DNA from: Conoideocrella luteorostrata
Taxonomy: Eukaryota; Ascomycota; Sordariomycetes; Hypocreales; Clavicipitaceae
Direction: 5' to 3'
Assembly (NCBI GenBank): GCA_032433595.1
Contig: JASWJB010000005.1
Location: forward strand, 1 to 64,000
Length of the DNA stretch: 64,000 bases
The translations under genes were made by a program, and so were the position numbers. The stretch's first letter is position 1; the number at the start of each line of letters is the position of its first letter. The notes under the pieces are model-generated. The model was not told the origin of the DNA. It was given only the letters and a program-made list of their open reading frames with translations, and ran no database searches. Positions 4,461-20,540 of the stretch are shown piece after piece.

Positions 4461-5288
4461 TTACTCGTTTGGGAGGTACAGCTTGAATTTCCCTCCAATG
4501 AGCTGGTCCTCGCCAGACTCAGGCTCCAGCCCTGCTACGTCGCGCTGGTCCAGCTCCGCGTGAAAGTTCACCTCGTACTTGCGAGGCTCGTCATCGTCCC
4601 CAAAGTAGCCTCCGTCAGTGTATTCGGTGGCTGTGAGCTTGCCGTCCTCGATCTTCAGCTTCTGCACGCTGAAAGCCAGAACGGTAGGGCCCGGATCCTG
4701 CCAGTCGACCTTGAGCGTGCGCTTCTTGGATCGCCTGCCCTTGAGCCCAAGCGGCGCCCCCTGCACATTGACGCCGACGCTAGCCTCGTTTGCCCTATTC
4801 TTGACATCGGTCGACTTGAAGACCACCCCGGACGCGGTCGCGACTCCCGTGATGAGGAACGCGCAGGGATCCGTGCCGTTCTTGAGGATATCCATGATGG
4901 ACTTCTCCTCCTTGAGCCCCGTGAGGAACCTGGACGACGGGTCTAGTAGCTCGATGGTCATGCTTTTGATATCATACGTCTCCGAAGCGTCGGTGTCCGA
5001 CTTGTGCGACAACTCGGCGCCAAAACTGAAGAACTGGAGAATCTTGGCGAACAAGCCCACCTCAGTTTCCTCGTCGTCGTAATTCCCGACGTGGTAGTTC
5101 TCGAGCATCTTCGGCTCGGCAATGTCGCCGACTACCAACGCCGGCGTCGCCTCGTCGGGACGGTATAATACCTGGTGCGGCTGCTTAATTTGGTAGATGA
5201 CGTTGCCCAGCTTGACCGACGACTTGTAGCTCCTCTTTTCGTCCGGCACGATAAAGAAGGACGCCGGGTTCTTGGTTGGCGACGTCAT
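4461..5288 (-). CDS. Gasdermin-like pore-forming cell-death protein (HET-Q1/RCD-1 family)
   Basis: Single-exon gene of 275 residues. The first true ATG is at 5288 (protein begins MTSPTKNPAS); an upstream in-frame TTG is ignored. The length matches fungal gasdermins, which are small and lack the large mammalian C-terminal domain. Seen in the sequence: an amphipathic hairpin-like segment (about 142-157, CAFLITGVATASGVVF) resembling the conserved 'VTGvk.a.ga' strand of gasdermins; a basic patch (about 183-190, KGRRSKKR) suited to acidic lipid binding; alternating beta-type strands; and an acidic/Gly loop (about 222-236) before a final segment of about 46 residues. In Podospora, HET-Q1 is activated when subtilisin-like HET-Q2 removes a C-terminal piece of about 5 kDa. 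A subtilase gene lies 4 kb away (9516-12832). Family membership is assigned from memory of motif pattern and from this context; a profile search was not possible. Expected role: membrane permeabilisation after proteolysis in allorecognition or defence. Confidence 0.8.
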   Translation of the reverse strand: MTSPTKNPASFFIVPDEKRSYKSSVKLGNVIYQIKQPHQVLYRPDEATPALVVGDIAEPKMLENYHVGNYDDEETEVGLFAKILQFFSFGAELSHKSDTDASETYDIKSMTIELLDPSSRFLTGLKEEKSIMDILKNGTDPCAFLITGVATASGVVFKSTDVKNRANEASVGVNVQGAPLGLKGRRSKKRTLKVDWQDPGPTVLAFSVQKLKIEDGKLTATEYTDGGYFGDDDEPRKYEVNFHAELDQRDVAGLEPESGEDQLIGGKFKLYLPNE

Positions 5289-5374
5289 CGTGATCAATTA
5301 TGCGTGTGGTGTTTGTGATGATATAGGAAGCAACTGGACAAAATTGAAGTGGTCAAAGTCGTGTATGTTGATGA

Positions 5375-5984
5375 TTCTTGACCCCTCCAATTCCTTCCAA
5401 AATGCCTCCTTTTATGCCTGCTTCCCATAGCTGCCAAAAGCCTCTCAATTCTGCACCTCCCATTATTGGAGACACAGCCCCGTCATCCGCCACCTTACCA
5501 TCCAACAGATGAGCAATTTACGGAGTATAAAGCAACAAATTTCCCCGGTGGTGGCAGCCATTCCTGTCTTACTCACAGAGCTGAGAATTGCTTACCACAC
5601 CTCGCGATGCCAAGGCACACGAGACGTGGTCACCTTCTATTGGACAAGCTACGAAGAGATGCAGCTTGGCCCGTTTACTCGCCTATCACCTCCCTTTCAC
5701 CCGCCCGTAGCGAGCAAAGACTTCTCTTCCGGATACTGCAGCTGCGCTTTGCACGATAATTGGCCGATGCCCGCCCCGTTGAGACGGGTAGTAATATCCA
5801 CAGCTTATATCTGTCGGATAGGATAGTCAATAGTGTGTAAGACTATTGAATATCGCGGAGGAATTTGGTCATGACGTTGGAAAGGTCGATAATCCGGGGA
5901 TACGAAGGATACGAGATATTAGAGGCGGGAAGGTGTCAACTTGAAAATCCGTTGCGCCATAGTGCAAAAGTGTGAGCCCACAAG
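5375..5984 (-). repeat. Gasdermin upstream region, copy 1 of a duplicated promoter block
   Basis: Two blocks here recur, in the same order and orientation, at 6738-6843. Block 1 is 5375-5423 (sequence around CCAATTCCTTCC and the TATA core). Block 2 is about 5936-5980 (around GTGCAAAAGTGTGAGC). In this copy the blocks are about 510 bp apart, but at the other site only about 20-30 bp apart, so this copy carries extra sequence (about 5428-5935) or the other has lost it. The extra segment has an ATG-initiated 105-codon frame (5509-5826, plus) with no recognisable features; it is not called as a gene. Confidence 0.65.
5408..5417 (-). promoter_or_regulatory. Probable TATA element of the gasdermin-like gene
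   Basis: The minus strand reads GCATAAAAGG about 120 nt upstream of the gasdermin ATG. The block around it (5375-5423) recurs at 6738-6785, where the element reads GGTATAAAGG. Conservation of a TATA-like core in both copies supports a promoter role. Confidence 0.45.
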
Positions 5985-6737
5985 AGGTAAAAGCTATGCG
6001 TGGATATTATTGTATGAGAAGGGGAACGGTGGAGACAACGCGCACATTTAAGTATGCGCGCACCTGGAGATAGCTTTCTTTTGTACAAGGACTTCAATAT
6101 ATTCAATCTTCGAAATTAGCTATGCAAAGGTCTCGTAAACGTGAAAGTTACGTATCCGACAGCCATAGCTAGCAGGAGTATGTCTATTCGGCGCTGTAAC
6201 CAGAAAAACGGGTACGGAGACAGACCGAATTATGATTCCCACACCCCGACCCGTGAATCAAGTTAAAGTCATGGCATATTACCCTTTACACACAAGAAAT
6301 CCTGTGTATTATTTATTTATTTATTTCTTCATAGCCTATGGCTCGGCTACGGCCAATTTGCTTAAAAATGCGATTTCTAGCGATTTCTTGAATTATATAT
6401 ACATTTAATAGGCCAACTAATTCATCCGATCATTCTGAGCGTGCCAAATAAGGCATTATAATAAGAATCTTGTTAATAACACTGGTCTCACTAGACGACA
6501 AGAAGGTAGGTGACTCCCTCCCCTGTAGTTGCGCTGCTGATTATATTCTTGTACGTTGTGCCTGAATTTGAGCACCCCCAGAGAAGCTGCGCCGAGCGAG
6601 GATTTTCTTTGACAAGGATGATTTAGTGATGTGTCAACATGCCTTGACGGGATATTCCAACAATAGATAGATATTTGAAGAGGTCATAAAATGCATGTAT
6701 TAAAGATGATGCTGATGATGATAATGAATATTCTGAG

Positions 6738-6843
6738 TTCTGACCCTCCCAATTCCTTCCATAATGCCTTCCTTTATACCTGCTTATTCTCCCAGTGTCG
6801 TATTGAATATACGTTGCACTAAGGTGCAAAAGTGTGAGCTTAC
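6738..6843 (-). repeat. Copy 2 of the gasdermin promoter block, orphaned
   Basis: Block 1 (6738-6785) matches 5375-5423 at roughly 85% by eye, including the TATA-like element. Block 2 (about 6799-6839) matches about 5937-5980, sharing GTGCAAAAGTGTGAGC. Weaker similarity continues downstream on the minus strand (GGTCAT...ATGTAT...GATGAT near 6683-6715 compared with 5351-5376). No gasdermin coding sequence follows it between 5985 and 6700. It begins 26 bp past the stop of the zinc-finger gene. The simplest reading is the scar of a second, lost gasdermin gene. Confidence 0.6.
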
Positions 6844-6868
6844 TAATTGTTAATTCGATAAGATATAA

Positions 6869-9100
6869 TTAAGTCTCATGGGTATAGTCATCGAGGCTGT
6901 CCACACTCTTCTGTTGTACGAAAGGTTGTGTCTTGTCTCCCTCAACAAACAAGCCCTGGTAGTCTGAGTCGGCCACATCTGACATCTCGGTTCCGCTGGA
7001 GTTGACCGGATCTGCAATGTTAACTCTGTCGTCGTCGTCGTCAGCATGTGAGGGCAGCGAGAGTAGTCGGATGGCGAGAATTGTGATGGTATATAGATGG
7101 CCGGCGACGTGTTCGCCCATCCGCCGAGACTCTTGAATTGTCTTGGGAAATATGTCTGTATTATGCCCATCGTCTTCTATATCTTCTTCTACGATCGCCC
7201 CCAAGGCCACCTTCGCGGCTTCTAGTGTGGAAGATTCATATTTGGTCTCCCTTTTAAATACTACTGAGGGCGATGCTTCGGCACCGTCTACCCCTGTTCC
7301 AGATTTCGAGCTAGGTTTGTTGTCATCGACAGAGAAGCAACAGAGTGGGCATATATTCGCGTCTCGACTAAGAAACACAGAGCTAAAACGGACCCTGCTC
7401 TGTCGCTGCTGTTGCGTATATTTTGGGTGCTCGTTTTCCAGGTGCTCCAGTAATTTGACTTCAGAGTCGAAGCGGCTAATCTTGCGTTGACCGGTTTCTT
7501 GGTCAATATGAAGACTGCACACCCAAGCCGGCATCTTGTAGATCTCGCGGTGCCAATCTACTGAATGCTTTTCCATGTGTCTTCGCCAGTCTAGGGACCG
7601 GGCAAATCTGGGAATGCTCTCGTTGATACGGGCGGCCTTTTGGGAACAGTCCTCCGACAGGCAAATGTAGGGCTCCCAGTCTTCTTTCAGATGCGCTCTA
7701 GATAAATCGTTAGTCACGTCCACGCTCGTCCACTGAATGTATTCCTACCTCCATGCAGCCGGATTGGTAAACATCTCGGCAGGATAGTTCTTGAAGCACC
7801 ACCGGCAGTCTGCATACTTTGCATTGTCCGGCAGGACCTGAGGTGGAGGATACCATCCAAGATTAGCACTTATAGACCTCATCGGTCGATCGTGACAGAC
7901 CGTGGCTGGAAGAGTTCGTGGATAATTCTTGTTAAATTCGCCCTCGCTGAAGACAGAGGACTTCACAGAAGTTAGGGTATCGTGGCTGGATTTTGGGAGT
8001 AGAGGTTGGTAGCCTTCCGCATTTGAGCGCAGCCTCGGAGATCTTTCCACGCCACCACCGTCGCCACTTTGCACCTCAGGCAGCTTCCAACGAGGTTGAG
8101 GTTGAGGTTTCAGCTTCGGAAGACAGGCATGAGACTCCTGTCGAATGCTGTACCCTTTTTGGTACTGCCTTTTCCGTGCCTCCAGGTACAAGACTTTCAG
8201 ATACTTCTCCACCAGGGACTTGCAGATGTGCTCGAGAAACTTGGGGTTTGCCGCGGGGTACAGACCTTCCAGGACAGAATATGCTAGCATGCTGAAGGAA
8301 TTCAGACGCTCTTCGCTAGCGTAAGGCTTGGTCCGAGACATGAGCTGTCCACCGGAGGCTTGGCGTATCGCGGCGCCGAGCCGGTGAAGGCGATCGAGAG
8401 CGCCTCCAATTCCAGCAAAACTTGCTTTCAGAGCCGGCGAAAACCGTGGCATATTGTCTTCCTCTACGAGAGGCGCAACTTGGTCAATTTCCGGGACTTT
8501 CTTGCCGACCAGTTGGACGGCTGCAAAGACTAATTTTTAGCTTAATTCGCACGCGAAAAGTGTCTATGAGCCCAGCCGGCGTTAATTGGTAGCCTACATA
8601 CCCGCGATCAGGTTCCTCTTGGCTATATGCAGTTGCTGCATCACGAGGCTTTTGACTTCAGGACTATTCCTGAGCCTGTGGTCAAGGTTAAGGTTTCCCT
8701 GGGCAAAGACGCCGAGGAAGCCAACCCAGGAATCATATCTCTGCTGATAGTCTGTTACCAGCCTCTTGGTGAGAGGGGTTTTGGCTCCTAGGCTATCGAG
8801 GAGCTGTGAAAACGTCTCCCAGCAATTTCGCGCGGTGTCAGTGATTTGGGAATCTTGGACGGCGGTCGGCTGGGGAGGGTCAAGGTGTAGCAGAGTGTCT
8901 GGCGCCGCGGACGAGACTCGTTCTTGCCCCGCTGTCTCTTTTTCTAATATAGAAGGAGGCCATGGTGACACAGTTTCGATCGTAGTTGTAGATACTTGCG
9001 AGGCAGCATCGTTGGCTAGTTCTGGCTGCATTGGAGGTGGCAAGGCTACTTTCGGCCGTTGGGAGGACCCCGGGGCTGCGTCAAATGTCGTTGAGACCAT
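6869..9100 (-). CDS. Large C2H2-like zinc-finger protein, partner gene in the cell-death cluster
   Basis: Three exons, 9100-8602, 8520-7749 and 7697-6869, give 699 residues. Introns of 81 and 51 nt start GTATGT and GTAGGA, and the second ends after a TGACTAAC branch point. The start at 9100 has the context CCACCATGG; frames further upstream lack an equally good start. The N-terminal third holds a helical region (CWETFSQLLDSLGA, then YQQRYDSWVGFLGVFAQGNLN and LDHRLRN) typical of fungal proteins often labelled 'oxidoreductase acuF-like C2H2-type zinc-finger'. The C-terminal half has repeated, partly degenerate Cys/His pairs: DCRWCF...WRAHL, YICLSEDC...WRRHMEKH, WVCSLH...LEHLENEH, and CPLCCF...GEHVAGHL, the last recalling the 'H.GRHLEELALFALP' ending of the family. 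Molecular function is not established. It lies between the gasdermin (same strand) and the subtilase (divergent, 415 bp apart), so co-regulation is plausible. Confidence 0.8.
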
Positions 9101-9515
9101 GGTGGGGAAAGAAACACAACAACGGTCAGACGATCTGAGCAGAATAGGGTCGAGAGAACAAGAAGTTGAAGTAACAGTCGAAATTAGGACTCTACGTGGG
9201 ACTCTACGTTGCACTCGCCAAGGCCGCGCATCTCTGTATCGGGCTCTTGACTCCAATATGGGGGAGCGGGGTTAAGTCATCAGCAGTACACGTGCTCATA
9301 AGCAAAATCACCAGCCAACCAGAATGAATGTACCAAGTCAGCCAATGGTCTAGTCTGCTGTCATTTTTATTACTCTTGCCTCTCATTCCCCGCTTGTTCA
9401 GACTTGGTGCAGAAATGCGAATTTCCAACACGTAGCCGCCGCCCGAATCCAAACGAGTTCAACGATTCATCCCAAGCGCCGGCCACGCAGCCGTCTTAGA
9501 GCCTGTTCCCTCAAG
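9101..9515. promoter_or_regulatory. Divergent promoter between zinc-finger and subtilase genes
   Basis: This 415-bp gap separates two start codons transcribed outward (9100 minus, 9516 plus). No clear TATA or repeated operator was identified. The short shared upstream region is the basis for suggesting coordinated expression. Confidence 0.5.
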
Positions 9516-12500
9516 ATGTCTTTGAATGGCATCTTGGAGTGGCAGGCCATAGTTGCTCTTCGCAGCTATTTGATCTTTACCCTGCCCGGTGATAATAGGC
9601 GGTCCGACCCCTACCCGCTGGAAGCCGCTGATATCTCAGGTGATAACGCGGAGGAAAGCTTTGAGTTTGAGCTAACGAGGGTCTTTGTCCGCCAAGATCC
9701 CCCGCTCCAGGTTGGAGATGCATGGGTGAATGACTGCCATCCAAAGCTTGTCAAGCTGGTGACCCTCCTCGATTCTCTGGTGAGAAGCGTGCAAAGGTAT
9801 CATTCCGGGCGGTGCAGCCAACTCAGCACCAAGTACACACGACTGGGGGATCTTCTCGAACATCTCGAAGCTACCAAGGTACCGTTAAATCTGATCAATG
9901 GCCCCCTCGGTCCGGCTTTCGACATGCCAAAGAGAGATATGGTTGAAAGACACCTCAAGACCGTTCAAGATGTCAATTTTCTTCTTGATTCATTGCTGCT
10001 TTCACAAAAGAGGACAGAAGAGTTTGAGAGTTTGGTACCAGCTGTAGCTACCCCCGAGCCCTTGGATGACAGCGTACGGGAGTACGCAACCGCAGCCTTT
10101 AATGCCATTTTTGGGCAACTGAAGCGCTGTAATCCAGAACATAGCGTAATGCTTTATCTCCGGAGTCAACAAGATGATAGTCTTGGGACGCCGAAAGCCT
10201 CTCTTGACCTGTTTTTCTCTTCATGCGTAGATCGTCATGTTTGGCAGGAGATTCAATGTGGTGAGCGCGAGTATGTTCATCGTCCCTAACCCCTGTCCAC
10301 CCCTCCGCCCTTCTACAACACATCTTCTCCCCTACTGAACGGCGCATTATGCTAATGATCGAACCCACAGGAACCTCGAGCTTGGCCCTCGAGAAGTTAA
10401 GGACCTCTGCCGGTTCATCAACGGCGCGAAGAAGCAGGGTCGCATAATACACGTAGCGGGGGAGGAGATTCAAAACATCACACAGACCCCTCCGCACGCA
10501 CGCCACCCCCGGGACGCTCCAAGCAAGTCACTCCGCTCGCTGATTCTGGGTGACGCGTTCAAGCCGCTTGATGTTGACCATGTGGTCTCGGTTCGGTTCA
10601 GTAGGGTCGAGAAGAGGAAACTCGCCGTGGATATCGCCAGCTCCCTTTCCCGTCTACTTGGGTCGCAATGGGTTGGCGAGGGCTGGTGCTCCAAGGATTT
10701 ATTTTTCTTGGGTAACAAGGTTGATCAGTCGAGATCAAATACACCGTTTGGCCCATACATTACTTGTTCAGCCGCAGGGCCACCATCGGACAACCTCGAG
10801 CGCTGGCGACCGAACTTGGGCGACCCGCCGATACTTCTCTTCCTCGCAAAGCTCCTGCTCGAAATTGATCTTGGAAAGGACTTAGACGACAGTATTGATG
10901 AGGCGTTGAAAAAAGACCCGAACGAGGATATTTGGTTCCTCTTGTCGGAAATCAAAGGGAAATACAATCCCGATCTTGAATACAGCGATGCCATTGAGTA
11001 TTGCCTCAATTATCACATGAAACGTCAAGCGAAACTCGAGCTTGGGGAAATCTCTGGAACGGCAAGCCAATGGTCTGAGTGGGATAGAACGTATATTCGG
11101 GGCGTTATCAAGAAACTCGCAAAACCTGCGACGGAGGCCCCGGAGGCGGACCCGGAGCCCAAATCTAGCAAGAAACGCCAGAAGGGTAGGTGGTGGATGG
11201 GCCACATAATAAATCCTGCCTCGGAAGCTTATTCCCCCCCGGCCAGCTTGTTCGAGGTGCCACCAACGACAATGAGCTACTATAGCTGTGATTCTGTTCT
11301 AGCAGACTCACTAGAGCCTGCTACTTCGTTGGGCCCGAGCAGGTCCGGCTCGACTTATCCCACCACGGTCAACTTCGAGCGGCGGACACAAAGCCCTTCT
11401 AAGGACCTAGCGGCCGCGGCGTGTCATCCCATTCCTGCTAAAGGCTACGAGGCCAAACCCAATGCTGAACTACAGATGCTACAACCCTCCAGGAACATTT
11501 CACCCATCATAGGCGGGTGGCTTGATGGCGCAGACCAGTCGGTGGCGTCGGCCGAGGACCCCTTGAAATCTCCGACTTCTGCGCTAGGGATGACGGAAGG
11601 TGACAAAATCGGCGTTTTATTTGACGCAACAGAGTTTCATGTGCTTCATGATCACCTAAAAGAGTGAGAATTCTAACCTTAACATTGTCGTTGACGTGAA
11701 CGCCCAGATTGCTCACATTATAGTACAGCGGACATAAGCAAGCCGAAGAGTATTGGGAGTTAATGAGGGACTTCAACAAGAAGCACTTCCTACCATCTCC
11801 AGATACCATGCTGACTGACGAGATAGACATGACCGGAACCAATGAGCAAACCGTGAAGAACCGCGGGGTAAAGCTTGCTCTGATCGACACGGGGTTGGAT
11901 ATCAATGATTCCCTCATAAAAATCGAAATGGAGCGAGGGAGAATTAAGTGTCGCAGCTGGGTTAAGGAGGATATTAGCGACTCGTGCGGTCACGGGACAC
12001 ATCTTGTGCGGCTCGTGCTACAGGTCAGCAAGTCCACAGACATCCTCATGGCAAAGGTTTCAGACAGAGAGTCATTCTCGCCTAGAATTACGCAGAACAT
12101 AGTCGAGGTAAGATTGCTACAGCGCGGGCTCCCACGAAAAGGTTATGCCCCAAAAGTACTGGGGTTTGGTTCCCTACTAACTAGAATGCATTCCGCGCAC
12201 AGGCGATTCAGTGGGCCGTAAAGGAAGACGCAGATATAATTTCGCTGTCATTGGGCTTCAAAAACGAAGTCAAACCCATCAACGACGCCATCGACGAGGC
12301 TCTTAGACCGAGGGTCAAGACTGGGGACGCACGACCCAGGCTCATATTTGCAGCAGCCGCCAACTGGGGCTTTAACCGGCCCTTGGCCTTCCCGGCGTGC
12401 AAGAAGGGTGTCATTTGTGTCTACGCCACGTTTGGCAATGGCTACGACGGACGGCTCGGCCCCAAGCAGGACGATTCCGTGAAAAACTTCCCGATAGGCA

Positions 12501-12832
12501 CGCTAGGAGTTACCATCGAGTCGCGATGGAAAGGGAAGGCGGTGTGGCTAAAGGGGACATCATACGCCACTCCGATTGCCTCCGCGGTCGCGGCAAACGT
12601 ACTGGAGTTTGCGCGGCGGAATCTGGACGCGCAGGTGCAGAGCGAGCTCGAACGGTTTCGAGGTATGAAAGCGGTGCTAGCGCTCATGTGCAAAGACTGC
12701 GACAGCAAGTCGTATCGGTACTGTGCACCATGGGTGCTCTACGAGAAGATCGTCAACAACGAGAAAATCAGCACTACGGAGCAGATCCTTAAGGCGATTC
12801 GACACGAGATTGAGGAGCTCGACTACTTGTAG
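9516..12832 (+). CDS. DUF7580 plus subtilisin-like serine protease (HET-Q2-like)
   Basis: Four exons, 9516-10270, 10371-11663, 11729-12107 and 12203-12832, give 1018 residues; all phases close. Introns start GTATGT, GTGAGA and GTAAGA and end CACAG, TACAG and CACAG. The N-terminal half carries a helical domain and then a region (about 290-400, VEKRKLAVDIASSLSRLLGS, GWCSKDLFFLG) characteristic of the fungal DUF7580 family often fused to subtilases. The C-terminal peptidase S8 domain (about 730-1000) has a complete triad: Asp736 in ALIDTGLD, His771 in CGHGTH, Ser929 in GTSYATP. The oxyanion Asn863 lies in AAANWG. No signal peptide is seen, so it is cytoplasmic. In Podospora, HET-Q2, an intracellular subtilase, cleaves the linked gasdermin HET-Q1; this gene is the natural candidate for that role here. 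The intact triad implies an active enzyme, and the N-terminal half is probably regulatory. The long low-complexity linker (about 500-680) is poorly conserved in look. Confidence 0.88.
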
Positions 12833-15556: not shown

Positions 15557-18500
15557 TTAACATAGGTACTCACTACAAGGCTGAACAAGTAAACTCCTGC
15601 TTCCGCATATTGATGGGATGCCCAACGGCCGCACTTGGTCGATTAAAGTCTTCATGTATTTATACTCATTATGAATTGGAACACGAAAAATTTTTCCTGG
15701 CTTGTTAATGCAGAAATGGCCGTTATGAATATACCAACTCAACTGATTGTCGAAGCTTTTTTGGAGTATGATCCTAAATAAGGATTTTGGGTAATTTTTT
15801 TTAAAAAGGCTGCAATAGACCTCTTCGTGCCTCTGCAGAATATCATCAGCAATATTTCGAACGCTCTCATTCTCATTCTCGTCTAGAAGCCGTGCTATTA
15901 TGTTCCGTAGGACCTCTTTCGGTAATTTCGATCGACTACCTAGAGATTTAATAGCAGCCTTTCGAACACTGCTCTCTTTATCCTGAAGTTGTGCCGCCAC
16001 GGCCTTTAATATTTCCTTTGGTAATGCTGATCGGCTGCCTAGAGATTTAACAGCAGCCCATTGAATACTGCTCTCTTTATCCTGAAGCCGTGCCACCACC
16101 GCCGCGAGTATTCCCTCTGGCAGCACTGATTGACTGCCTAGAGATTTAACAGCAGCCCTTCGAACACTGCTATCTTTATCCTGAAGCCGTGCCGCTACCG
16201 CCGTGAGTATTTCCTTTGGCAGCACTAATTGGCTGCTTAGAGATTCAACAGCAGTCCTTCGAACACTGCTATCTTTATCCTGAAGTCGTGCCGCCACGGC
16301 CGCGAGTATTCCCTCTGGCAACGCTGATCGGCTGCCTAGAGATCTAACAGCAGCCCATCGAACACCGCTATCTTTATCCTGAAGTCGTGCCGCCACGGCC
16401 GCGAGTATTCTCTCTGGCAACGCTAATCGGCTGCCTAGAGATCCAACAGCAGCCTCCCGAACACCGCTATCTTTATCCTGAAGTCTTGCCGCCACGGCCG
16501 TGAGTATTCTCTCTGGCAGCGCTGATCGTCTGCCTAGATATCCAACAGCAGCCTTTCGAACACCGCTATCTTTATCCTGAAGTCGTGCCGCCACGGCCGT
16601 GAGTATTCCCTCTGGCAACGCTGATCGTCTGCCTAGAGATCCAACAGCAGCCTCCCGAACATCGCTATCTTTATCCTGAAGTCGTGCCACCACGGCCGTG
16701 AGTATTCCCTCTGGCAACGCTGATCGGCTGCCTAGAGATCTAACAGCAGCCTCCCGAACATCGCTATCTTTATCCTGAAGTCGTGCCGCCACGGCCGTGA
16801 GTATTCTCCCCGGCAGCGCTAATTGGCTGCCTAGAGATTCAACAGCAGCCCATCGAATACAATAGTCTTTATCCTGAAGTCGTGCCGCCACGGCCGTGAG
16901 TATTCCCTCTGGCAGCGCTAATTGGCTACCTAGAAATTTAACAGCAGCCTCTCGAATATTATTATCTTTATCCTGAAGTTGTGCCGCTATGACCGCGAGT
17001 ATTCCCTCTGGCAGCGCTGATCGGCTGCTTAGAGATTCAACAGCAGCCCATCGAACATTATTATCTTTATCCTGAAGTCGTGCCGCCACGGCCGCGAGTA
17101 TTCCCTCTGATAACGTCGATCGGCTGCCTAGAGATATAACAGCAGCCTTTCGAACACTGTTATCTTTATCCTGAAGTCGTGCCACCACGGCCGTGAGTAT
17201 TCCCTCTGGCAACATTGATCGGCTGTGCAGGACTCGAACGGCAGAGCTTTGAACGACTCCATACTTGCTCTGTAAGCCCTTTATCATAGCGGCAAGGATA
17301 TTTGCCGATAATGTGGATTGGGTCTCAAGGATAGTAGAGGCTGAATACTGGATATGCCGGCTCTCACCCTCAGCCAGTATCTGGTCTGTCACAATCGAGA
17401 GGATCTCCTCTGGCAAGGTCGATATGCCGCCCAGGGCTTGTAAGGCTTTGGCTCTCACATTCTCACGCTTGTCTTGAAACCATAAGGCCGTTTGCATAAT
17501 ATTGTTCGGCGAAAGGTTGGCACGATACGAAAGCGAGTCCAGAATTATTTCTATAACGTCAGACCCCTCACTGAAGGCAGTGAATAATGCCTGTTCGGGA
17601 AATTCCTCCTCTCTTGCTAGCCTTGCACTACTATTATATCTGCATTCGAAAAGCAACCACTCGGACAGACTTTGTTCCACGTCTCCTCGAATTCGTAAGT
17701 TCTTCGATACTTCGCTTAGGCAATGCATGACCAGTCTTTGATGCGTAGGACCCAAAAGGTCAAGCGGTTCTTGGTTGATGAAATCAAGAAATGAGTCAGC
17801 CTGGTTTTTTGCGTCCCACAAGCCCGCGACAAAGCGCCAGAATATGTCGTAGCGTGCTGTATACTTGTGTTTGTCAAGCAACCGAACAGGCTCGGTCTCT
17901 TCGGTCTTTTCGCTATTGAGATCCGTACATTTTAGTGGTCTCCCTGAATACCATTGTCGAATATAGTATCGAGCTGCAAAATACTCCAAAAAGGTCAAGT
18001 GTATGAAGTGGTAGTTTTGGTCCTTAAATTCTAATAATGGGTCAGATGCCCGCAAAAATGAAAGGTTTGGAAGAGTTTTGTTGAGTAGAATCTTTGGAGC
18101 CTTAAATTCCTTCGATATTACAGACCAATTTTCGGAAGTAAAGTCAGTCGCATCGTTATACAGCCCGGTAAACGCAAGACCTTCAAGGAGATAGAGTTCA
18201 TCTTCGACGAGGCTGGGAACATCCGAGACCGCAATTTGGCAAGATGTCAGCAACTCCCCGTCGTGCTTCTTCTCCAATCGCAAAATATCTTTCTTCCATA
18301 ATTGACGCTCGATAAGTCCGTACATGCTGGTCATGGTATCAGGTATGTCGTCAGGTTTCATGTCGTCCCAAGTGTAACATAGTGCATCTAGCTGAATTGG
18401 GATACGGACAAGACCCTGGATAAGCCAATGTTTTTGTAGAAATACCTGTATGTCTTGAACCTTTTTTAGGTTAATGTCATTTTTCTCTCGATTAGTAAAA

Positions 18501-20360
18501 GTTTTTTCGATGTAGTCGTTCACTTGGTCTGGGTAGAACCCAATTGTTTCTAGTTCGAGGTCTATGTCAAGTGAAGCCAAGCGTCCTGTCGAGGGTCGGG
18601 TCGTGATGATCACGTTCGGTTGTTTTAACAGCACCTTGAGGAATTGTGACATGGAGTCTTCGCGCTCGAGTTCCTGAGATACTTCATCCAGCCCGTCGAG
18701 AATAAACAAACTTCCACCGTTGCGGTCCTGTAGTGCTCGCCACATTTCTCTAGCAAGATTGCGGCCACCGTTCTGTCCACAAAAATACTCATGATAGAAC
18801 AGTTCCTCAAAATTGTATCCGGGAATCTGCCTTCTTTCCTGCAGTTTCAAATTCCGTAGAGGCACCCAAAGTACACGCTGGAATAGCTTGTTCCATTCGC
18901 CCCAGGTACCTTTACAGAATTCAGAAATAATTTTTTTACAAAGGGTAGTTTTCCCCACTCCTGCGCGCCCTCGAATCAAGATCCTCCTTGGTTTTACCCA
19001 GCCGCAATTAGGCTGTTCGCGTGTATTGAACATCTTCGCCAAATCGACTTGGATTGTCTCGTCCGGTGTTGTAACCCTTTGACGACTAAAGAGTGAAAAC
19101 GGTGAGGGCCCCGACGATAAGTTTGTTTCATCAGCCCTCTCGACGGATTTCTCCACAACAGAGAGATTAACATAGCATTGCTCCATGGGCAGAGAATGAC
19201 CCGAGAGTCGTTGTATCTTGAGTCTCTCCACAGTGTAGCAATTATCACGGATGCAGGCATCCGCCCTATCAAGCAATGTTGGTGCTCGAATCCCCTGAGC
19301 ATATTGTTCAACCTTCCCTGCCACTTTGATATAATCTGAATCGTCAGGGCCTGAGAACTTATTCATTCTTCCATGGGGTCTATCGAGTGGTAATGGATGG
19401 GGAACCATTTCCAGAGTGGCAGAGTCTTTATCAACCAGCTAACAAGTGTTAACAACTGTTCACTCTGTCGGAAAATATTTTGAGAGTGGCAATGGTGACA
19501 CCTACCCGTTTTGATCCGGATGATAGCCAAGGAATCTTGAATACATTTGTCACGCCCGTTTCATAAAAGGTCATTACCTCATAAGGATAATCTTTATCTC
19601 GACATAGTTTGGTAAAACTGCGCACGAGTTCGTCGTGATCGAACATTAAGCCTGTAACTCGGCCAAGCAACTTGTTCACCCTTTGGCCACGAATCGAGGC
19701 CCAAGTTCTCAGAACAAACTCTAAAATGCCGGTAGCGTCTTGGAGCGAGGTGCCTCTGAATGGTGTTGCAAGGAACACAACGGCGCGTGTGGCTCTTCTG
19801 ATCGAACGGTACTCGCAGTCGTCGTTGGCCATCACGAGCGACTTCATGAGGATGATACCGCCAAGACATGACGCAATGAAAATAATTGGCCGATCTTTTC
19901 TTGAGTGTCTGTTTATCCCATCGAGCAAGAGCCGCGCCAATTCCTCAATCTCCTTCTGGACTAGGTCCGATCGCTCGAATAGATCAGAGGGCCAGTCGCA
20001 AGTGAAAATGCGAGCACGCCCAACTTTGTGCGGTAGCATGTCATCATCGGCTAGCCAGTGAACATTTTTGGGCGGACTTTTGGACTTCCAAATCCATGTA
20101 TCTGGGGACCCCGTGTCTAGGCCATGAATGGCAATGATGTCGATGTCGGTGTCGGGGTCGGGGTCGGGGTCGGGGTCGGCGGAAGCATTCTGGGGATGTA
20201 TCTGGACAAGATTAACACCTTTGCTATATGTGTTATTTGTTTGCGAAGATCGGCAGATTGAAGACGGGTAACGGCTTCGTCTCGAACGTCGGATGAGCAG
20301 CGCAGTTACCAGAACGACCACGAAGGCTTTGATCGCACCTAGAATGGTCTCTGTCGCCAT
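15557..20360 (-). CDS. NLR: SesB-like hydrolase - NACHT - HEAT repeats
   Basis: Two exons, 20360-19506 and 19438-15557, give 1578 residues. The 67-nt intron (GTAGGT...GTTAG) restores the SesB motif LVDKDSATLE...NKFSGPDD across the junction. The start is the first ATG (MATETILGA); a frame upstream lacks ATG. Order of parts: an N-terminal hydrophobic helix (about 7-22) followed by RRSRRSR, a likely membrane anchor; an Asp-Pro repeat; a SesB-like alpha/beta-hydrolase (about 85-325) with AIHGL and FIASCLGG, where the usual nucleophile Ser of HSLGG is Cys; NACHT with Walker A GRAGVGKTT (about 442-450), Walker B LFILDGLDE (about 529-537) and TTRPS; a winged/helical region; then about 16 HEAT units, 13 of them nearly identical. 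In fungi such NLRs trigger cell death upon ligand binding by the repeats. It follows the subtilase tail-to-tail, with 2.7 kb between. Confidence 0.9.
15880..17250 (-). repeat. 99-bp coding tandem repeat (HEAT array of the NLR)
   Basis: About 13-14 consecutive 99-bp units, each encoding a 33-residue HEAT unit of the form ILTAVAARLQDKD-xx-VR-x-AAV-xx-LGS-xx-ALPEG. Adjacent units around 16568-16766 differ at only about 4 of 99 bases by eye. Differences cluster at fixed places: the residue after VR (K, W, E or R), the pair before it (NS, NN, YC, SD, SG, SS), and the pairs after AAV and LGS. Two more degenerate units lie upstream (about 17250-17450) and one downstream. This is the pattern of unit exchange by recombination with selection on surface positions. 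Confidence 0.92.
20146..20178. repeat. GTCGGG hexamer microsatellite inside the NLR exon 1
   Basis: Perfect and near-perfect GTCGGG hexamers encode, on the minus strand, an Asp-Pro repeat (DPDPDPDPDTD) directly before the first strand of the SesB-like hydrolase. Because the unit is 6 bp, copy changes keep the frame and would only lengthen this linker. Confidence 0.85.
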
Positions 20361-20423
20361 GATCGTGGCTTCTTCCCTCGCGTACGTCTTTGCCGGCGGC
20401 AAACAAAGCAGAAAGCCTATAGG

Positions 20424-20540
20424 TGATGAAAGTCACAAAAAAGCTGATGATTCTCGCCGAATAGACTTGCAGAACGCGTATCGGCGATGAAAGTCACAAA
20501 AAAGCTGATGATTTTCGCCAAATAGACTTGCTGAACGCGC
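20424..20540. repeat. 62-bp tandem duplication upstream of the NLR start
   Basis: Two head-to-tail copies begin at 20424 and 20486. Both read GATGAAAGTCACAAAAAAGC and continue through ATAGACTTGC(A/T)GAACGCG. A few substitutions separate them. They sit 64 bp upstream of the NLR ATG, so they lie in its 5' UTR or core promoter. Confidence 0.9.

Follow-up and report, generated by a model that had tools for sequence, protein, structure and literature searches.

Conoideocrella luteorostrata, a pathogen of scale insects (PMC12352038), carries a putative three-gene cell-death module in the 64 kb with which contig C5 begins. This 64-kb stretch, hereafter the window, was analysed together with the whole genome of 46.4 Mb in 620 contigs. 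The gasdermin-like gene (4461-5288, minus strand) has a single exon encoding 275 amino acids and was recognised from its open reading frame and homology. Beside it on the same strand, the gene for a zinc-finger/helical protein (QQS21_000504; 6869-9100), which would be the third component of the module, comprises exons 9100-8602, 8529-7749 and 7697-6869 and encodes 702 amino acids as we modelled it; the deposited protein, at 100% identity, has 699, without three residues at the start of exon 8529-7749. The DUF7580-subtilase gene on the plus strand (9516-12832; exons 9516-10270, 10371-11663, 11729-12107 and 12203-12832) encodes a protein of 1018 amino acids that is 100% identical to QQS21_000505 of this species. 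The zinc-finger and protease genes diverge from start codons separated by 415 bases (9101-9515, assigned to neither strand), a stretch that may serve as a shared promoter. From the protease start codon to the gasdermin start the distance is 4.2 kb, and from the Peptidase_S8 (S8) match to the gasdermin it is 6.9 kb. An earlier prediction made from this DNA had placed both the gasdermin and the protease correctly, since the frame at 4461-5288 begins with an ATG and runs through 275 codons without a stop, and 9516-12832 splices into four exons.

The 275-residue protein is, judged by its sequence, a fungal gasdermin of the HET-Q1/RCD-1 type, as the original prediction had proposed. As a single query against the sequences of the PDB, it matched the HET-Q1 pore (9uv9) with an expectation value (E) of 0.005. 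A family profile of 18 homologues including the window protein (profile A1) gave E values of 4.8e-6 for HET-Q1 and of 0.018 and 0.44 for RCD-1-2; after these came two chains of unrelated proteins (1.1 and 2.2). Named homologues come from Gaeumannomyces hyphopodioides (75% identity), Chaetomidium leptoderma (65%), Xylaria curta (50%), Nemania sp. (49%) and Hyaloscypha variabilis (46%). Two results count against the assignment. The Pfam Gasdermin family PF04598 reached only E 0.19 and 11.6 bits on the window protein, below its cut-off of 25, and it matched just 3 of the 18 family members at E <=10. A search of the C. luteorostrata genome with PF04598 recovered none of its 13 gasdermin loci, so we consider this family insensitive to the present branch and its failure not decisive; it was dropped as a test of gasdermin identity and replaced by the profile search of PDB sequences, in which HET-Q1 and RCD-1 are matched. 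The AlphaFold model was also poor, with a mean predicted local distance difference test score (pLDDT) of 44. Foldseek returned 121 matches at E <=10 for this low-confidence model, none of them at <=0.001; the top 13 rows were all fungal or bacterial gasdermins, with a best E of 2.4e-3 and TM-scores of 0.16-0.42. In the comparison of folds suggested with the prediction, gasdermins thus fill the first 13 rows, but at low significance and on a model too weak to build on. Overall, the protein has a gasdermin profile match and, at low model confidence, gasdermins as its first structural neighbours, rather than neither.

The C-terminal end of the gasdermin suggests how it might be activated. HET-Q1 sheds a piece of about 5 kDa, with F238 as the probable site (PMC12881547). 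In the window protein the corresponding position is Phe229 (codon 4602-4604, minus strand), which is invariant in all 18 aligned A1 sequences and is followed in each of them by 45-47 residues of 4.9-5.4 kDa with a net charge of -5 to -19. As this invariant residue and the size of the tail match the loss at F238 in HET-Q1, cleavage is predicted after Phe229. A cut at this position would probably free the tail of the gasdermin, releasing 46 acidic residues of 5.2 kDa; before that, the acidic tail may inhibit the protein.

The second protein combines DUF7580 (E 1.2e-53; residues 184-475, encoded at 10065-11040 on the plus strand and split by the intron 10271-10370) with Peptidase_S8 (E 7.4e-16; residues 728-951, at 11862-12628 on the plus strand, split by the intron 12108-12202). 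The catalytic triad of Asp736 (codon 11886-11888), His771 (11991-11993) and Ser929 (12560-12562), all on the plus strand, is intact in the spliced protein, in agreement with the prediction of an active-site-bearing subtilase at 9516-12832, and each of the three residues is kept in 12 of 12 aligned sequences. The protein presumably acts inside the cell, and Pfam recognises no receptor repeats on it. The DUF7580 half had also been foreseen; its likeness to kinases had been missed. The genome has 17 DUF7580 loci, and a profile built from 15 of them (profile A3; C291 and C74, with a stop inside their matches, were omitted) gave 168 PDB matches at E <=10, and the best 60 of the 168 were all protein kinases or pseudokinases, including CLK1 (1e-4), IRAK4 (1.5e-4) and MLKL (0.008). 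This sequence comparison shows a likeness between DUF7580 and the C-terminal lobe of protein kinases. In the A3 alignment no kinase N-lobe is recognised, and by eye the HRD catalytic aspartate is absent, as the window protein reads GWCSKDLFFL where the catalytic loop should be. Of two structure searches with the protease, one listed subtilases and the other matches spanning residues 659-1016, in the S8 part, so that the S8 domain dominates these lists. DUF7580 is also found with HeLo and without S8 in three proteins of this genome (C512, C54 and C555), a layout like that of MLKL; on the C512 frame with HeLo and DUF7580, Pkinase scores 23.3 bits (E 4.8e-5), short of its cut-off of 31.7.

The pairing of gasdermin and subtilase recurs throughout the genome. 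Single-protein genome searches, confirmed by profile, gave 13 gasdermin loci; a fourteenth candidate (C130:5474-5695; E 0.151) has a stop inside and was dropped. An S8 match lies within 7 kb of the gasdermin at 12 of the 13 loci, eleven of them within 6 kb and the window pair at 6.9 kb, and at 11 of 12 if the window is excluded. With at least 111 S8 matches in at least 88 loci genome-wide, a rough estimate assuming uniform placement gives 1e-16 for 11 of 13 gasdermin loci with S8 within 6 kb; the pairing exceeds chance. More specifically, a DUF7580-subtilase accompanies nine of the 13 gasdermin loci. DUF7580 itself has 19 matches at 17 loci, ten of which have S8 beside it, and a gasdermin lies within 7 kb at nine of these ten, the exception being C587; at the seven DUF7580 loci without S8, no gasdermin was found in the roughly 10 kb examined around each. 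At C492 and at C221 one open frame holds both DUF7580 and S8, and in the window splicing joins them.

The zinc-finger gene recurs with this same class of loci. Beyond its own contig, the window protein found relatives at C30, C71, C88 and C203, all of them gasdermin loci. The Xylaria curta homologue matched 13 contigs at E <=1, comprising 10 gasdermin loci together with C241, C547 and C232. A search with the zinc-finger stretch of C30 gave 15 loci at E <=0.1, eleven of them at <=2e-5; these eleven strongest are ten gasdermin loci (the query locus included) and C587, and at the ten gasdermin loci the relative lies 0.7-7.2 kb from the gasdermin. A relative is present at every one of the nine gasdermin loci with a DUF7580-subtilase, and the same search found none at the three gasdermin-S8 loci without a DUF7580 match (C171, C105 and C4). 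The original prediction had treated the intervening zinc-finger gene as an incidental difference from the het-Q1/het-Q2 arrangement, and this recurrence contradicts it: the part of that prediction describing a HET-Q1/RCD-1-type gasdermin near a subtilase with an intact triad stands, and the zinc-finger gene belongs to the pattern. Since the family recurs at most gasdermin-protease pairs, a three-part rather than a two-part system is suggested.

Two loci show partial versions of this layout. At C587:147-7661, a DUF7580-subtilase is divergent from a frame of 1165 codons in which the zinc finger runs on into PNP_UDP_1, NB-ARC and TPR; the contig ends on the protease-stop side, so a gasdermin could be missing from the assembly. 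At C71:129422-130761, there are only a gasdermin and a zinc-finger relative, each interrupted by stops within its match, and S8 finds no match anywhere on this contig; this is possibly a decaying module.

Several zinc-finger frames are joined to domains of receptors or effectors. The zinc-finger frame runs on into ankyrin repeats at C291 (8.6e-66) and into TPR repeats at C30 (1.5e-22), where a CHAT match (C30:73487-74413; E 2e-28) also falls inside the 1427-residue zinc-finger frame, as judged from equal frame length and phase. By the same criteria of length and phase, the zinc finger and an S8 match (C23:63289-63732) share one frame of 586 residues at C23. A genome search with TPR_10, from which the best 150 of 432 candidates were considered, places a possible TPR part of the C221 zinc-finger gene at C221:58253-58501. 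The window protein has a helix-rich N-terminal part followed, by eye, by Cys/His-rich, C2H2-like stretches; below the Pfam cut-offs, zf-met2 reaches 0.03 on one exon piece and zf-C2H2 0.023 on one homologue.

On these comparisons, which identify a gasdermin and a protease, relate DUF7580 to kinases and find the three genes together at locus after locus, we consider it likely that the window encodes a three-protein intracellular cell-death module with a zinc-finger sensor, a protease controlled by a kinase-like domain and a gasdermin executioner. The division of labour, in which the zinc-finger protein senses, the protease cuts and the gasdermin kills, is proposed because receptor parts occur on zinc-finger frames and none is found on the window protease. 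From this we infer the direction of signalling: the zinc-finger protein would be the upstream partner, most likely sensing a trigger such as non-self or an intruder and activating the protease, whose subtilase activity would be controlled by the kinase-like DUF7580 domain. The activated protease would then remove the short acidic tail that keeps the gasdermin inactive, probably after Phe229, and the freed N-terminal part would make pores in the plasma membrane and kill the cell. The divergent arrangement across 415 bases would permit joint expression of the zinc-finger and protease genes. More tentatively, and with less confidence than we would need to favour it, we propose that fungi possess an uncontracted three-protein pyroptosis-like pathway, in which the zinc-finger receptor is a protein in its own right, bearing ankyrin, TPR, NLR (NOD-like receptor) or CHAT parts, and would dock on a pseudokinase-gated subtilase and turn it on, thereby freeing the gasdermin. 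The zinc-finger/helical domain would then be a fungal counterpart of the docking domains of inflammasomes, and DUF7580 a pseudokinase switch common to HeLo (necroptosis-like) and S8-gasdermin (pyroptosis-like) death.

Comparison with known systems places the pairing among published arrangements and the zinc-finger gene outside those of the papers searched. The het-Q1/het-Q2 system, reportedly described by Clave et al. 2022, is the closest counterpart. It is a gasdermin and subtilase pair of Podospora anserina (PMC12881547, PMC10197012); the window likewise places an S8 protease gene close to a gasdermin that is homologous to the HET-Q1 pore chain and ends in a predicted tail of about 5 kDa. 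It may differ in the kinase-like DUF7580 of its protease, and it differs in the third, zinc-finger gene that recurs at loci of the window type. Among fungal gasdermin genes, about 80% have a protease gene as neighbour: about 63% one of the S8 type and a further 19% one of the CHAT type nearby (PMC10197012). As such gasdermin-S8 clustering is published (PMC10197012), we regard the window pair in itself as an ordinary, known arrangement. Two-gene clusters are described in the same source, and in these the protease can form part of the receptor (PMC10197012). The window resembles these Q2L clusters in its gasdermin-S8 clustering, and C171, where an ankyrin frame (Ank_2 1.9e-39) lies upstream of the S8 frames on the same strand, resembles their published ankyrin-S8 form; Pfam gave no match on two frames upstream of the C105 subtilase. 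In the Q2L clusters as described, however, the receptor repeats lie within the protease protein, whereas at several loci of this genome they lie on separate zinc-finger frames. RCD-1 of Neurospora crassa is a relative of the window gasdermin (profile E 0.018), but its control depends on two allelic variants meeting and does not involve cleavage (PMC12881547). The fungal MLKL-like HeLo-kinase proteins share DUF7580 with the window protease; their effector would be the HeLo membrane domain, whereas the route to an effector in the window would be a protease acting on a gasdermin.

In our literature search, to which the original het-Q1/het-Q2 description was external, we found no link between this zinc-finger family and gasdermin clusters, and a search on DUF7580 returned nothing. 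The term 'zinc finger' is absent from the main text of PMC12881547, PMC10197012 and PMC9815663. Zinc fingers have been reported on 57 NLRs of Sordariales, 34 of the C2H2 type and 52 of the 57 in C-terminal position (PMC12258605), and the word gasdermin is absent from the main text of that paper. Set against the papers searched, what is new here is the recurrent zinc-finger third gene; the gasdermin-S8 pairing was already known. The stimuli that activate the putative sensors of fungal gasdermins were listed as a major open question in a 2025 review (PMC12881547). Should the zinc-finger protein be the sensor, a class of fungal gasdermin modules would gain a named and testable gene as its missing input, and the animal chain of receptor, protease and gasdermin would have a fungal parallel that is likewise made of separate proteins. 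Through the kinase-likeness of DUF7580, one shared switch domain would, in turn, join pyroptosis-like and necroptosis-like death in fungi.

A number of observations weigh against the three-protein module. The receptor part expected of a sensor has no Pfam match at E 0.05 on the window zinc-finger protein. Weaker matches to the zinc-finger family lie at C450 (6.6e-4) and C74 (0.0035), where DUF7580 occurs with neither S8 nor a gasdermin, and elsewhere at C241 (0.012), C547 (0.016) and C232 (0.059, a short stretch). Fungi commonly have zinc-finger proteins of this type, and more sensitive searches could find many relatives outside such clusters. Apart from the window, C492 and C221, a single DUF7580-S8 protein is surmised from neighbouring matches on the same strand. 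The Phe229 position is occupied by Leu, Met or Val in seven aligned paralogues and is hydrophobic there still; as a cleavage residue invariant across the whole family, Phe229 was therefore rejected. In Gaeumannomyces and Chaetomidium, no zinc-finger homologue is among the four proteins listed (the best 7,989 candidates were scored), and by tag numbering no such gene lies between the gasdermin and the protease.

Of the alternatives, the one that survives best makes the zinc-finger protein a restraint or dedicated regulator, either an inhibitor or a DNA-binding factor of the cluster, instead of a sensor. The C2H2-like Cys/His pattern seen by eye, the divergent start codons 415 bases apart and the lack of recognised receptor repeats on the window copy would all suit such a role. 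We nevertheless think it rather unlikely, given the parts of receptors and effectors on sister frames, namely ankyrin, TPR-CHAT, PNP-NB-ARC-TPR and subtilase domains.

It is likewise conceivable that protease and gasdermin suffice as a two-gene module of the het-Q1/het-Q2 type, an arrangement already published (PMC10197012), with the zinc-finger gene serving another function in the same neighbourhoods. The gasdermin and protease genes of Gaeumannomyces hyphopodioides (RB595_003680/003681) and Chaetomidium leptoderma (C8A00DRAFT_32425/32424) have consecutive tags, and within C. luteorostrata the loci C171, C105 and C4 show no zinc-finger match. Against it, the zinc-finger family attends all nine DUF7580-subtilase-gasdermin loci, ten of its eleven strongest loci are gasdermin loci, and at C30 and C23 the zinc finger shares one open frame with protease domains, which makes the two-gene explanation unlikely. 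Other species also speak for three genes together. In Xylaria curta, the gasdermin, protease and zinc-finger protein are each encoded on a contig 24,258 bases long. In Cylindrodendrum hubeiense, the zinc-finger homologue G7Z17_g1657 has zinc-finger-family and TPR parts, and the next number, G7Z17_g1658, is annotated as a single DUF7580-S8-gasdermin protein with the gasdermin at residues 785-1044 (profile E 1.2e-125); these are either true fusions or merged gene models. The zinc-finger homologue of Trichoderma austrokoningii (51%) has no gasdermin or protease partner among the matches listed. Gaeumannomyces and Chaetomidium, which have the closest named relatives of the gasdermin and protease, presumably lie outside the order of C. 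luteorostrata. Patchy inheritance of the gasdermin and protease, or their transfer between lineages, is possible on sequence grounds, and transfer is considered because the closest named gasdermin, at 75% identity, sits in a fungus of another order.

A further candidate for the sensor, also to be set against the module as we propose it, is the NACHT-HEAT NLR encoded by an open reading frame at 15557-19438 on the minus strand, 2.7 kb beyond the protease stop and outside our count of module genes; it could drive the protease, leaving the zinc-finger protein as an adaptor or bystander. Besides its position, it holds a 99-base unit in 13.1 copies at 88% match (15930-17225). We judge this improbable, as there is no sign that this NLR recurs at the other gasdermin loci, although no survey aimed at it was made. 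Very improbable is that the gasdermin acts uncleaved through a different partner gasdermin, like its relative RCD-1, which is not controlled by cleavage (PMC12881547), with the protease cutting another substrate, given the acidic tail of 45-47 residues after Phe229 in all 18 A1 sequences and the subtilase gene at 12 of 13 gasdermin loci.

Just upstream of the NLR, an open reading frame on the minus strand (19449-20432) has no Pfam match at E 0.05 and looks like what we take to be a SesB-type esterase domain. Repeat arrays such as that in the NLR are typical of fungal recognition genes, and the 99-base array suggests recent repeat turnover.

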